The notes beneath the pieces were generated by a model, which was not told the DNA's origin, ran no database searches, and was given only the letters and a program-made list of their open reading frames with translations. The position numbers and the translations under genes were made by a program. From the NCBI GenBank assembly GCA_016839955.1, contig JAEOTI010000314.1:1-6123 (forward strand): 6,123 nucleotides of DNA, written 5' to 3'. This DNA comes from Candidatus Hodarchaeota archaeon (GTDB lineage Archaea; Asgardarchaeota; Heimdallarchaeia; Hodarchaeales; YT1-057). Shown one piece after another: positions 1 to 5,518 of the stretch; position 1 is the stretch's first letter, and each line of letters opens with the position of its first letter.

Positions 1-91
1 AAACACTGCTGGAAATAATTACGTCTATTTTAGTTATACGGCTGCCTTCAATTTCACAAGAACCCTTTCTGTGTGGGAGATCCAAGCTTAA
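1..91 (+). CDS. C-terminal end of a membrane-anchored surface protein, paralog of the next gene (partial)
   Basis: The reading frame starts at base 2, enters from the left edge and stops at TAA 89-91, giving 29 residues that begin NTAGNNYVYF and end LSVWEIQA. Aligned without gaps to the last 29 residues of the protein at 319-894, 21 positions are identical, including the ending FNFTRTLS(V/I)WEIQA. The gene is therefore a tandem paralog of its downstream neighbour. The visible part is beta-strand-like, alternating aromatic and polar residues, and contains the sequon N-F-T, so it probably lies outside the cell like its paralog. The N-terminus, anchor and promoter are outside the window. The function is not recognised. 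Confidence 0.85.
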   Translation, partial: NTAGNNYVYFSYTAAFNFTRTLSVWEIQA

Positions 92-318: not shown

Positions 319-894
319 ATGTCAACTCAATCTTTTTTCGCTGGTTTTTTCATCGCTGCTATTCTCTGCGGTGGAGTTGTTATTTTTGCATTTCCAGAAA
401 TATTGGAAACTGAATCGTCTGAAGAACAAAAAGGAAATATCCTTCAGAGAAAGATGATTAAAACTAACTCTGAGGCATATATTGAGAATCTTGATATAGC
501 AAATTGGATCGATGTTCCTGATACAAAAACTGTTATAACCACCAAAGGTAACTCCTTCCTCGTATTGGGCTTTTCAACACCATACACACTTCAACTAGGA
601 AGTAGTTTTTCTGGTGTAACTAGGTTTAATATCTCCCTCGAGGTAAAAGGTGTTGGTAATCATCAAGGTCGCATCGGATATTATAGGGCCACAACTTTGG
701 GATCATATACAGAGATGCATGGTACTTTCTATCTGAATTTCGAGACAGAAGTTTTACCCGAAGGTAATTATTCTATCGGAGTGTTGTGGATTTCAGTTAA
801 TGAGAATATAAGTGCAAATAGTTATGTTTTTTTCAGTTATTCAGCTAATTTCAATTTTACAAGAACACTTTCAATTTGGGAGATCCAAGCTTAA
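319..894 (+). CDS. Membrane-anchored exported protein with beta-rich ectodomain, function unknown
   Basis: The protein has 191 residues. Residues 6-26 form a hydrophobic segment (SFFAGFFIAAILCGGVVIFAF) with no charges and no clear cleavage site, best read as an N-terminal membrane anchor or signal sequence. Residues 27-60 are polar and charged, probably a linker. Residues 66-191 look beta-rich, with alternating hydrophobic and aromatic strands, and would form one jelly-roll or Ig-like domain outside the cell. Four N-glycosylation sequons (N104-I-S, N150-Y-S, N163-I-S, N179-F-T) all lie in this part, which fits an archaeal S-layer-side protein. It has no cysteine in the ectodomain and no catalytic motif that I recognise. 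The start is supported by GAGGT 9 nt upstream. Its C-terminus is shared with the truncated gene at 1-91, so the two arose by tandem duplication. It could be an adhesin, a receptor or a cell-envelope structural protein; the sequence does not decide. Confidence 0.85.
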   Translation: MSTQSFFAGFFIAAILCGGVVIFAFPEILETESSEEQKGNILQRKMIKTNSEAYIENLDIANWIDVPDTKTVITTKGNSFLVLGFSTPYTLQLGSSFSGVTRFNISLEVKGVGNHQGRIGYYRATTLGSYTEMHGTFYLNFETEVLPEGNYSIGVLWISVNENISANSYVFFSYSANFNFTRTLSIWEIQA

Positions 895-994: not shown

Positions 995-2374
995 TTACTT
1001 AAGAAATTGACGAGTTTGTTTCAAATAATCTAAAACAGTTCGTAAATTATCTTGTACATCATCTCGGGAATATCTTTGAACCTTCTCAAGTTTAGTAAAT
1101 TGAGTTTGGAGTTTTTTTAATTCCTTTCGAGCATTTTGAGCGATTAGATTTATTCCTCGCTCGTTAGCTAATAGTTCAGCTTGAAGAAAATATTTCTCAG
1201 CTTGTTTTAAGTCAAACATAGCCCGTTTTAGTAAGCCTTTGATCCATAAAGCTTCAGCGTACGTCCCATAAAGCTGCTCTCTTTTCGATAAATCCTCAAT
1301 ATCGTGCAAAAGATCATCACACACAAGTAAATGGTCCTCATCGTCATCAAAGAAAAAAAGATTAATTTGTACCTGCATTAGAAATATGATTGCTTCTATC
1401 ATTAATCCGAAATGAGGAACACTCTCAGCATGAGTCATTGCCTGATTTCCAAAAAACATCGCTTCATTTAATTCCCCTTGATGAAGTTTCAAATGACCAT
1501 TCAATAAAGAATGTCTAATAATAACATCAGGTAATTTTGATTTTTCCCCTAGTTTCTTTAATTCTTGGGTTTGATTCATTATCTGTTCGAAATTTCTTAG
1601 CATAAGGTGCACTAAAGCTAAATGATAACGTGTTTCACCTAAAAGTCTTGGATTACCAACTTTTTCAATTTTAGAAAGGCTTTGATAAAGGAAATTTTCT
1701 GCTAGATTCAATTCTCCTCGCTGCCAAAAGATAATTCCCAGATTAGTTAATGGAATACCAACCCCTAAAGGATCACCTTGCTCTTTTGAAATATTTAAAC
1801 TACGAAAATAGAGCTCCTCAGCCTTCTTTAGCTCCCCTCGTTGCCAATAAACCACCCCTAAATTATTTATTGCCCCCGCGATCCCTGATGGTCGGCCAAT
1901 TTCTTCCCGTAAGTTAAGACTATGTTGATAGCATTCTAGAGTACGATCGAGTTGTCCTTTTTGGCGATATAAAATACCAAGGTTGTTTACACAATCAGCT
2001 ACTCCTTCAAGATCACTAATCCTCTCTCTTATAGTTTTACTTTGGATAAGGTGTTTTTCAGCTAATTCTAAATCTCCTCTTTCCATTGATATAGCTCCAA
2101 GGTTCCATAATGCTCCAGCTTCTCCTTGAACATTCTTTGGTTCTTTTTCAGATAGTTTTAAAGCCAAATTGGAGTTCATTTCAGCATTATCATACTCACC
2201 TATCCTCCAGGAACAATGACTTATCTCATTCAAACATTTGATTCGTTTATCATATTCAGAAGGTGTTAATGAGGATAATAATTTTTGAAATAAAGAAAGA
2301 GCTTCCTGGACTTTGCCAGATTGACGGAAAGTCTTAGCTGTATTGAATGAAGTATCAAAAATTGTAAAACTCAC
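995..2374 (-). CDS. TPR-repeat protein 1 (kinesin-light-chain/LGN-like repeats), probable scaffold
   Basis: The protein has 459 residues and is soluble, with no signal or membrane segment. After an N-terminal helical pair (residues 15-80) come four TPR units in strict 40-residue phase, with the N-L-G signature at 91, 131, 171 and 211 and a degenerate fifth at 251. The units carry the TPR positions NLG..Y.(R/W)(Q)(R/K)G.L..AE. A C-terminal helical region (about 280-420) contains GLLKRA.FDL and ends in a charged coiled-coil-like tail (about 412-459). Residues 342-347 are acidic (DDDEDH). It aligns along its whole length with TPR protein 2 (2866-4356), which has one more unit. The start is GTG at 2374: no ATG lies between the upstream in-frame stop and residue 66, and the length matches the paralog within a few residues. 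TPR proteins bind other proteins through a concave groove; a link to the nearby Arf-like GTPase is inferred from position only. Confidence 0.9.
   Translation of the reverse strand: MSFTIFDTSFNTAKTFRQSGKVQEALSLFQKLLSSLTPSEYDKRIKCLNEISHCSWRIGEYDNAEMNSNLALKLSEKEPKNVQGEAGALWNLGAISMERGDLELAEKHLIQSKTIRERISDLEGVADCVNNLGILYRQKGQLDRTLECYQHSLNLREEIGRPSGIAGAINNLGVVYWQRGELKKAEELYFRSLNISKEQGDPLGVGIPLTNLGIIFWQRGELNLAENFLYQSLSKIEKVGNPRLLGETRYHLALVHLMLRNFEQIMNQTQELKKLGEKSKLPDVIIRHSLLNGHLKLHQGELNEAMFFGNQAMTHAESVPHFGLMIEAIIFLMQVQINLFFFDDDEDHLLVCDDLLHDIEDLSKREQLYGTYAEALWIKGLLKRAMFDLKQAEKYFLQAELLANERGINLIAQNARKELKKLQTQFTKLEKVQRYSRDDVQDNLRTVLDYLKQTRQFLK
1646..2125 (-). repeat. Four 120-bp TPR-coding units in TPR protein 1
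   Basis: Residues 84-243 consist of four consecutive 40-residue units, each 120 bp with no length variation. Each unit has N-L-G at unit positions 8-10 and an RG or KG at about 16-17. On the plus strand the repeated word resembles CCTCGTTGCCAATAAA. The period is longer than the canonical 34-residue TPR and matches the LGN/Pins-like and kinesin-light-chain-like type. Confidence 0.85.
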
Positions 2375-2865: not shown

Positions 2866-4356
2866 TTAAGAGAATTTTCGTACTTGTTGGATATAAGCTA
2901 ACACATCTTTCAATTGCTCATGTTCAAAAACTTGTACCGATTTTTGTTGTAGCTCTTTTAATTTTGATATCTGTTGTTGAATTTTCTTCAATTCTTCCTG
3001 GGCTTTTTGAACCACAAGTTGAATCCCACACTCTTCCGCTAACAGCTCAGTCCTCTGAAATAAAAGAGTAGCTCCTTGAAGATCGAACTTTGCTCGTTTT
3101 AGAAGTCCTTGTATGAAGATTGACTCAATATAGGCACCATGTAGATATTCGCGTTTACAAATCTCTTCCATTGCCGAGAGTAAAATTTCGCATTTGGTCA
3201 TATACTCGTCCTCTTCCCTAAGAAGGTATACCTGGAGTAGGACTTCTAAAAGGAATTGTGTACTCTCTACCACTAATTCAAAGTGAGGAATTTGTTCTGC
3301 TTGAGATTTTGCTTTTTGGCCATATTCTAATGCTTTCCCTAAATCACGATGCACGAGGGACAAACGTCCTGTCGCTAAGTAATATCGTACTGTGATATCA
3401 CGTTCCACATAGTTTTTGGACAACTCTGCTAGATGATCCACATTCTCTATGACACTGTCAATGTGTCCGTGCATTAAGATAACTCGTACTAAGTGATGAC
3501 GAGATTCCGCGATGTGCTGAGGATGACCAAGCTGCTCATTAAGGACGAGGGCTTGTTGAAAAACATCTTCAGCTTGATTCAATTTCCCTTTCTGTAAAAA
3601 AACAACTCCAAGATCATTTTGAATTGTCGCTATTCTTTCCGAATTTCCTATCTTTTTATAGAGAGCTAAACTGTGTTGGTGATACTCTTCAGCTTGATCC
3701 AATTCCCCACGTTGGCGATAAATAATTCCTAGATTATGAAAAGATACAGCGATATCTTGCAGATTGCCTAGTTGTTTAAATATAGTAAGACTACGTTGGT
3801 AATACTCCTCAGATAGAAGCAATTTTCCACGTTGCGAATAAAGAACTCCCAAATTATTCAGGGATGCCGCAATATCCTGCAGATTACCGATTTGCTCACG
3901 TAAACTTAAGCTTCGCTGGTAATAATTCTCTGCTAACTCTAGTTTCCCACGTTGCCGATAAATCATACCTAAATTATTCAGAGAAGCCGACAAATCTTGT
4001 GGGTCACCTAACCTTTCCCTTTGGAGAAGACTCTGTTGGAAGAATTCTTCAGATCTATCTAATTCCCCGCGTTGCCAATAGATTACTCCTAAATTGTTCA
4101 GTGCATCTGCTTCACCCGGTTGATCAAAAGGGGCTTGTTTAGCTAATCTCAAAGATTCCGTTGCTGAATGTTCTGCTTTTACTAAATTACCCAATCGCCA
4201 ATAGCATTGACTTTGTTCATTAAGTCCTATAATCCGTTCTCCACACGGGACTGATTCTGAGTCCTCAAGAAAAGTGTTTAGAAGTGTTAGAGCTTCAGTC
4301 AACTTTCCAGCTTCTCGGTTTTTTCTTGCTTCCTTGACAGGTCCTGGTATAGGCAT
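2866..4356 (-). CDS. TPR-repeat protein 2 (kinesin-light-chain/LGN-like repeats), probable scaffold
   Basis: The protein has 496 residues and is soluble. Residues 10-72 form an N-terminal helical TPR-like pair. Residues 81-280 are five regular 40-residue TPR units, with LNNLG or a variant at 86, 126, 166, 206 and 246, and a degenerate sixth (RHHLV) at 286. The typical unit reads NLG.IY.QRG.L..AE.YYQRSL followed by LGN.QDIA. Residues 318-456 form a helical region shared with TPR protein 1, including PHF at 357-359, GLLKRA.FDL at 417-426 and a QKAQEELKK helix. The tail (450-496) looks like a coiled coil. The ATG at 4356 has only a weak GGGT upstream, but alignment to the paralog supports it. 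The gene lies 151 bp downstream of the Arf-longin gene on the same strand. A role as effector or adaptor of that GTPase is possible but unproven. Other TPR uses, such as regulator or assembly factor, cannot be excluded. Confidence 0.92.
   Translation of the reverse strand: MPIPGPVKEARKNREAGKLTEALTLLNTFLEDSESVPCGERIIGLNEQSQCYWRLGNLVKAEHSATESLRLAKQAPFDQPGEADALNNLGVIYWQRGELDRSEEFFQQSLLQRERLGDPQDLSASLNNLGMIYRQRGKLELAENYYQRSLSLREQIGNLQDIAASLNNLGVLYSQRGKLLLSEEYYQRSLTIFKQLGNLQDIAVSFHNLGIIYRQRGELDQAEEYHQHSLALYKKIGNSERIATIQNDLGVVFLQKGKLNQAEDVFQQALVLNEQLGHPQHIAESRHHLVRVILMHGHIDSVIENVDHLAELSKNYVERDITVRYYLATGRLSLVHRDLGKALEYGQKAKSQAEQIPHFELVVESTQFLLEVLLQVYLLREEDEYMTKCEILLSAMEEICKREYLHGAYIESIFIQGLLKRAKFDLQGATLLFQRTELLAEECGIQLVVQKAQEELKKIQQQISKLKELQQKSVQVFEHEQLKDVLAYIQQVRKFS
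3517..4116 (-). repeat. Five 120-bp TPR-coding units in TPR protein 2
   Basis: The units are 3997-4116, 3877-3996, 3757-3876, 3637-3756 and 3517-3636, in exact 120-bp phase. The plus-strand word CCACGTTG(C/G)C(G/A)ATAAA recurs every 120 bp around 3708, 3828, 3948 and 4068. Units 2 and 3 share YYQRSL and NLQDIA or near variants, so internal duplication is likely, though the copies have since diverged at the DNA level. Confidence 0.88.
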
Positions 4357-4507: not shown

Positions 4508-5518
4508 TCAAACACTCAACTGTTCTATGAACGCAGTACGGAGAAAATCAAGTAAATCCTCTTTATCGATTGGGACAACAACGTCTGGAGGACATAAGGG
4601 CAATTTTTCATTTATAACCCATTTAAGGATACCTTCACCCATTTTCGTGACAGTTTGCACGGAATCATGTTGGTCTACAACCATAATACACACTTGGTTT
4701 TGAGATGCAATTTTTATGAGGGAATATTTTTCATTATTTCCTTTTTCTTTTTGAAGCACAATATGGTCAATTCCAGCAATTTTCGAGTCCAATTCTTTAG
4801 CAAATTGGTCAATCGCACTGAAAAGTGGTGTTAATATCTCTGGTTGATCTTCTATTGACCCAATACATGCATTGATTCTTGGTATTCCACTTATTTTATC
4901 ATAAACAAACACATTGTGTAAATTTATTTTAGGTTCTTCAAATCCTTCTCCTGTCATTGACGATGCTAACCAGTCGAAAGCCGTGAAAAATGCTTCTCCT
5001 GTTTTTGTGGAAAGCAAAAAAATGTTTATGGCCTTGAGATCAGTTCTAGTCTGGATTGTATAAAGATCGAATACTTCAAGAACTTCATCATATATATTTT
5101 CCTTAACAAGATCTGATTTATTTGCTAGGAGTAGTAAAGTGCATTTAGGGGGAAGTAAATTTAGAACATTCTGGAGTGCTGTAAAAGATTCTTGAAACAA
5201 GGTGGGATTAGAAGCATCAATGACATAAACTACAGCTGTAGCGAATCTGACATATGCTTTCCAAAGACTGTGAAATGCGATTTGTCCTCCAAGGTCAAAT
5301 GTGTTAAAATTCACTCCCTTATACTCAAATTCATCTGCATTTAGGCCCATCGTCCTTTCAGGCGAAATAAATTCTCCATGAATCAAACGATGAAGAATTG
5401 TTGTCTTCCCAGCTCCGGCTAAACCTATAAAAATAACTTTTCCTTCTGTAAGGATTTTTCTTTTTTCTCTCTTGAATAAACGGCCAAAAATTGACAAAGA
5501 AAAAACAACCAGAAACAT
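4508..5518 (-). CDS. Arf-family small GTPase fused to a C-terminal longin/roadblock-like domain
   Basis: The protein has 336 residues. Residues 25-187 are a complete Arf-type GTPase domain. The P-loop is GLAGAGKTT (32-40, Lys38), switch I is RTMGLN with Thr56 (compare Arf PTIGFN), and switch II is DLGGQ (75-79), keeping the catalytic Gln79. LWKAY (85-89) matches Arf LWRHY, the base motif is NKSD (133-136), and the G5-like motif is STKTG (170-174), before FDWL. Residues 202-336 show strand-strand-helix-three strands-helices: NVFVYD, RINACIG, helix 225-243, HIVLQ, YSLIKI, VCIMVVD, helix 286-303, helix 318-334. This is the longin order. The N-terminus (MFLVVFSLSIFGRLF, then KREKRK) is hydrophobic then basic and may bind membrane; there is no Gly2 for myristoylation. 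The ATG at 5518 lacks a ribosome site, and TTG at codon 8 (MSIFGRLFK) is an alternative start. It probably cycles GTP/GDP at a membrane. The GTPase call is firm and the longin call is by pattern. Confidence 0.92.
   Translation of the reverse strand: MFLVVFSLSIFGRLFKREKRKILTEGKVIFIGLAGAGKTTILHRLIHGEFISPERTMGLNADEFEYKGVNFNTFDLGGQIAFHSLWKAYVRFATAVVYVIDASNPTLFQESFTALQNVLNLLPPKCTLLLLANKSDLVKENIYDEVLEVFDLYTIQTRTDLKAINIFLLSTKTGEAFFTAFDWLASSMTGEGFEEPKINLHNVFVYDKISGIPRINACIGSIEDQPEILTPLFSAIDQFAKELDSKIAGIDHIVLQKEKGNNEKYSLIKIASQNQVCIMVVDQHDSVQTVTKMGEGILKWVINEKLPLCPPDVVVPIDKEDLLDFLRTAFIEQLSV

Follow-up and report, generated by a model that had tools for sequence, protein, structure and literature searches.

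An Arf GTPase joined to a longin domain

How might an Arf-type GTPase and a longin domain work together when they form one chain? The question is raised by a gene in a 6,123-nucleotide stretch from Candidatus Hodarchaeota archaeon (GenBank assembly GCA_016839955.1, contig JAEOTI010000314.1), called the window here. By its sequence, the product of this gene is a two-domain Asgard GTPase of the Arf family, heimdallarchaeial by its relatives. Its C-terminal domain is predicted to have the longin fold.

Arf proteins are GDP/GTP switches. The Pfam Arf profile matched residues 23-187 with 117.6 bits (E 5.3e-34; cut-off 22.3), followed by Roc (49.8 bits), Ras (46.1), Gtr1_RagA (30.1) and SRPRB (21.9). 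The earlier note had described an open reading frame at 4508-5518 with five intact, Arf-like G-motifs, including DLGGQ and LWKAY, and this was borne out by the sequence, by the Pfam match and by an alignment of 32 sequences. In addition to G3 and G4 (Table 1), the motifs comprise G1 GLAGAGKTT (residues 32-40), Thr56 of G2, LWKAY (85-89) and the G5 serine at 170. Ten positions (G32, K38, T39, T56, D75, G78, N133, K134, D136, and S170) were invariant across the alignment. With the Arf profile above those of Ras, Rag and SRPRB, and with G1-G5 and GGQ intact, the GTPase head is assigned to the Arf family. A Rag-type G domain was rejected on the same bit scores.

AlphaFold2 placed the C-terminal elements of the full-length protein as strands at 200-207 and 213-218, a helix at 226-244, strands at 250-256, 264-271 and 275-282, and helices at 287-305 and 319-329. 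The order was unchanged when the domain was modelled alone, and it is the strand-strand-helix-three strands-helix-helix order previously proposed for residues 202-336. In this bbabbbaa topology the first strand is not preceded by a domain helix, and the last is followed by two helices. The same arrangement, two helices after the last strand and none at the N-terminus, is given as the longin pattern in the legend to Fig. 7 of PMC10933270. The chain stops a few residues past the final helix.

The earlier note had left the choice between longin and roadblock to structure prediction and a fold search. When the C-terminal domain was searched, solved longins ranked top and matched over most of its length. 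The best structural matches among those listed in two fold searches were the SNARE longins Sec22b and Ykt6, TRAPP subunits, and AP subunits. Were the domain instead a roadblock, the protein would be a plain Rag-like GTPase; by title, 20 of the 50 listed Foldseek rows were indeed chains of Ragulator or roadblock proteins, and the top five included two of these. The TM scores (TMt) of these rows were 0.41-0.53. Sec22b reached values of up to 0.74, but many other longin rows scored no higher than the roadblock rows. The two C-terminal helices, the missing helix before strand 1 and the TM scores led us to reject a roadblock identity, and with an Arf rather than a Rag head the Rag-like alternative appears highly improbable. 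Of the two folds first offered, only longin was thus retained. No Ragulator or MglB chain appeared among the best 50 VIA rows, a result that excludes nothing.

The link from the window domain to longin sequence families is indirect, running through stand-alone Asgard relatives. For the C-terminal 142 residues, Pfam returned no family at E 1 or below, and a sequence search with residues 195-336 recovered the window protein alone (1 of 111 candidates). A profile of the domain built from 10 sequences (A3) found no longin in the PDB, its one match being a designed protein (E 1.3). The same profile was searched in 227 Asgard-phylum genomes, where its weaker rows with loci included a further Arf-longin (L038) and ten frames at nine loci (L039-L047) with a longin-like domain and no GTPase match. 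An alignment of seven pieces from these ten frames (A4) matched A3 by hhalign with a probability of 98.9% (E 3.1e-17), a value that is not independent because the pieces were chosen as A3 hits. Pfam Fuz_longin_1 was found in five of the seven pieces (best 1.8e-6), Longin in four (best 0.047) and Clat_adaptor_s in three (best 0.0089), as was the unrelated Mating_N (three; best 0.0025). Searched against the PDB, the profile of the stand-alone pieces gave MON1A (0.0019) and AP subunits (from 0.041), together with unrelated rows such as HTP-2 (0.058). The stand-alone proteins occupy open frames of 171-306 amino acids with the domain at a probable M(I/L)HN start. The seven pieces scanned come from L040 (twice), L041-L044 and L047; their five Fuz_longin_1 matches are to the first longin of FUZ/MON1/HPS1, and three pieces match AP small chains.

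Distribution and phylogeny of the family

A search among 5.8 billion proteins yielded 95 matches, including the window's own. The two-domain layout was present in 31 relatives (P0002-P0024 and P0048-P0055; alignment A1), whose source names, where given, are Hodarchaeales, Hodarchaeota, Heimdallarchaeota, Thorarchaeota or Promethearchaeota. Judged from these sequences, the Arf-longin fusion is a real conserved family. A chance open reading frame at 4508..5518 is ruled out by this conservation. Three Heimdallarchaeota genomes hold four, three and two frames that span 303 or more of the 333 model positions. A profile search of the C-terminal domain across Asgard archaea had also been proposed beforehand. 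Profile A3 had matches at E ≤0.001 in 212 of the 227 genomes, and 27 rows in 20 genomes had E <1e-15. All 23 of these strong rows that were checked carried a GTPase in the same frame; the check covered all but G050:C67, G048:C45, G049:C11 and G047:C74.

In a quick tree built from 102 GTPase domains, for which the program flagged long branches, the window sequence grouped with P0002-P0006 (SH-aLRT 97). These six rows fall in a larger group of 57 (99), whose other members are 28 Arf-longins of the P0007 type and 23 single-domain proteins. Arf-longins, 66 rows in all, do not form one clade and require four label changes, of which at least two are forced by supported branches. Support for the tree's grouping of the window, P0007-type and single-domain groups was 70, and the two alternative groupings were not rejected (AU p 0.69 and 0.76). 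Both constrained trees even exceeded the free quick tree in likelihood. A second tree covered 51 C-terminal domains, comprising 41 of the 66 fused domains and 10 stand-alone ones, the latter a small sample of top hits. Fused and stand-alone domains separated at 99/97, with the root placed between them and long branches flagged. This split is what a single fusion would predict.

A tandem pair of a putative active GTPase and a pseudo-GTPase

The arrangement of genes in some relatives bears on how the two domains may work together. At seven of seven loci of one related lineage (L028, L029, and L031-L035), an Arf-longin gene encoding DLGGH lies upstream of another GTPase-longin gene in the same orientation; the gap, measured to the first Met, is 119-149 bases. 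The second gene has lost the GGQ motif (e.g. LIDLGKEI) and kept GxxxxGKTT. Such a pair hints that an active GTPase and a pseudo-GTPase form a heterodimer. DLGGH, with His in place of the catalytic Gln, is present in several Arf-longin lineages (L001-L003 and L012, besides the seven pair loci). The substitution would be expected to lower intrinsic hydrolysis.

With the tandem pair as main support, beside the analogy to Rag GTPases, we give roughly an even chance to a Rag-like mode of action, in which a nucleotide switch is combined with a C-terminal longin serving as a permanently attached assembly platform. The Arf head, with its intact motifs, would cycle between GDP and GTP, while the longin may pair with another longin or a roadblock domain as a homo- or heterodimer. 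Such pairing would keep the switch heads together and position them on partners, a role played in Rag GTPases by the C-terminal roadblock domains. Recruitment to a membrane or partner, and any effect on nucleotide exchange or hydrolysis, may form part of this mode of action. Longin and roadblock domains are described in a passage of PMC10933270 as dimeric platforms that bind small GTPases. LokiRagO (8yl2) and the Rag/Gtr proteins likewise combine a GTPase with a further C-terminal part, and 8yl2 ranked second in Foldseek. It differs in being named Rag-like by its depositors, with a C-terminal part that is probably a roadblock. P0073, a relative of 8yl2 (8.2e-89), aligns with only 35% of the window protein.

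Several observations weigh against the Rag-like proposal. The 301-column match to 8yl2 has an rmsd of 13 Å, so the arrangement differs, and the pTM of the full-length AlphaFold2 model was 0.61, which makes the relative placement of the two domains uncertain. The pair-bearing relatives are 24-37% identical in local alignments, and no second Arf-longin gene lies within the window. The seven pair loci belong to genomes that are closely related by tree, and are read as one event.

The chief rival casts the longin as a cis regulator, packed against the switch regions of the Arf domain in its own chain and either tuning exchange or hydrolysis or hiding a membrane-binding N-terminus. SRX packs on the switch regions of SRbeta-GTP in this manner; in the signal recognition particle receptor, SRbeta and SRX are two separate chains, unlike the window protein. 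SRX ranked 30th among the fold matches listed, below SNARE, TRAPP and AP longins, and the placement of the two domains is uncertain at this pTM. We regard cis regulation as somewhat unlikely. The same ranking, headed by Sec22b and Ykt6 with TRAPP and AP subunits, favors a targeting or cargo-binding module outside the GTPase cycle, as in Ykt6, Sec22b or AP sigma. Rank among longins, however, says little on function, and a chain that ends just past the last longin helix has no room for a SNARE helix. A targeting module seems quite unlikely.

A bolder reading goes further. Arf-longin would be ancestral for this part of the Arf family in heimdallarchaeial Asgards, with the nearest single-domain ArfRs (P0025-type) as stripped-down descendants, and the Arf-longin of one lineage would act as an obligate pair with its neighboring pseudo-GTPase-longin, a Rag-like two-headed switch made from Arf and longin parts. 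We consider this joint scenario unlikely.

Gene structure and neighborhood

Translation of the gene may begin at a site other than the ATG at 5518. Initiation at the TTG would give the N-terminus MSIFGRLFKR, which is in register with the MSFLKRLFGK-like N-termini of the nearest relatives in the 32-sequence alignment. Residues 1-19 had low pLDDT in the full-length AlphaFold2 model. As a candidate for the amphipathic membrane helix of Arf proteins, the segment MSIFGRLFKRE has a hydrophobic moment of 0.65, which was reached by 12% of its shuffles; in 12 segments tested this proportion was never below 6.9%, and amphipathicity at the N-terminus was not distinguished from that of shuffled sequence. 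A scan for bacterial-type promoters gave seven matches against 5.6 expected, near chance.

Table 1. Positions of the Arf-longin gene and its features in the window
Feature	Position	Strand	Evidence or remark
Arf-longin gene	4508..5518	minus	336 aa, ATG start at 5518; whole-length relatives P0002-P0024, 38-52% identity
Alternative TTG start, residue 8	5495..5497	minus	in register with starts of closest relatives (sequence and alignment)
Arf-type GTPase domain, residues 24-190	4949..5449	minus	Pfam Arf 5.3e-34; Foldseek best match HodArfR1 8ouk
G1/P-loop GLAGAGKT, residues 32-39	5402..5425	minus	sequence and alignment
G3 DLGGQ, residues 75-79	5282..5296	minus	sequence and alignment
G4 NKSD, residues 133-136	5111..5122	minus	sequence and alignment
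C-terminal longin domain (predicted), residues 197-336	4511..4930	minus	AlphaFold2, fold search, profile chain

Two paralogous TPR proteins adjoin the gene (2866-4356, minus strand, 496 amino acids; 995-2374, minus strand, 459 amino acids). The 191-residue protein encoded at 319-894 (plus strand) appears by eye to have a second copy, whose tail is encoded at the start of the window (positions 1-91, plus strand). Both copies end in FNFTRTLS(V/I)WEIQA, and a tandem duplication is likely. The 191-residue protein has a hydrophobic N-terminus and matched no Pfam family above cut-off.

Around 10 orthologous P0007-type loci, two gene clusters recur, at 10 of 10 and nine of 10 loci, and the window's neighbors fall in none of these clusters. 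Scans covered ten neighbor proteins, eight at L048 and two at L052; among them were an FGGY kinase, a class III aminotransferase, a DNA methylase, an MFS transporter and others, one of them without a family. Both nearest neighbors at L048 and L052 lie on the opposite strand. With this mixed set, the opposite-strand neighbors and window neighbors outside the clusters, operon partners were discarded as a clue to function.

Relation to known GTPase-longin proteins and significance

Longin and roadblock domains had been described in the earlier note as separate partners of GTPases in eukaryotes, and on that view a fusion would be remarkable. This does not hold for Asgard archaea, where fusions are in print; the primary source of a count for Lokiarchaeum is reportedly Klinger 2016. 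According to Box 1 of a 2016 review (PMC4917890, its reference 23), Lokiarchaeum has 41 longin domains, five of which form fusions with small GTPases of the Arf-like type. For MK-D1, a passage of a 2024 paper (PMC10933270) gives 26 of 74 GTPase-related sequences as combined with roadblock or longin domains, and its section 7 places longin-fused GTPases in a Rag-like class, many of whose members are annotated as Arf. Passages of PMC10307638, PMC12993045 and PMC6141808 contain nothing on GTPase-longin fusions.

These fusions resemble the window protein, by description rather than sequence, in joining a small GTPase and a longin in one Asgard chain. The MK-D1 class differs in that its Rag-like label rests on structure, although its members often carry an Arf annotation, and the window protein, unlike either set, belongs to the Hodarchaeales/Heimdallarchaeota group by its relatives' names. 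An Arf domain is shared with the Asgard ArfRs (HodArfR1, 8ouk and 8oul; GerdArfR1, 8oum), which a passage of a review (PMC12554972) describes as the origin of eukaryotic Arfs. HodArfR1 (8ouk) was the best whole-protein Foldseek match, with 34% identity over 173 columns, but its solved chains, at 179 and 192 residues, are too short to include a C-terminal longin.

Since GTPase-longin fusions have already been published for Asgard archaea, the Arf-longin protein belongs to a known kind, to which the window contributes a subfamily together with a clear structural assignment. Both Arf GTPases and longins are central to membrane traffic in eukaryotes. The archaea of this family stand near the proposed sister lineage of eukaryotes, named as Hodarchaeales in the abstract of PMC12077186. 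A conserved family that carries both parts in one chain offers single proteins in which the relation between GTPase and longin is biochemically testable.
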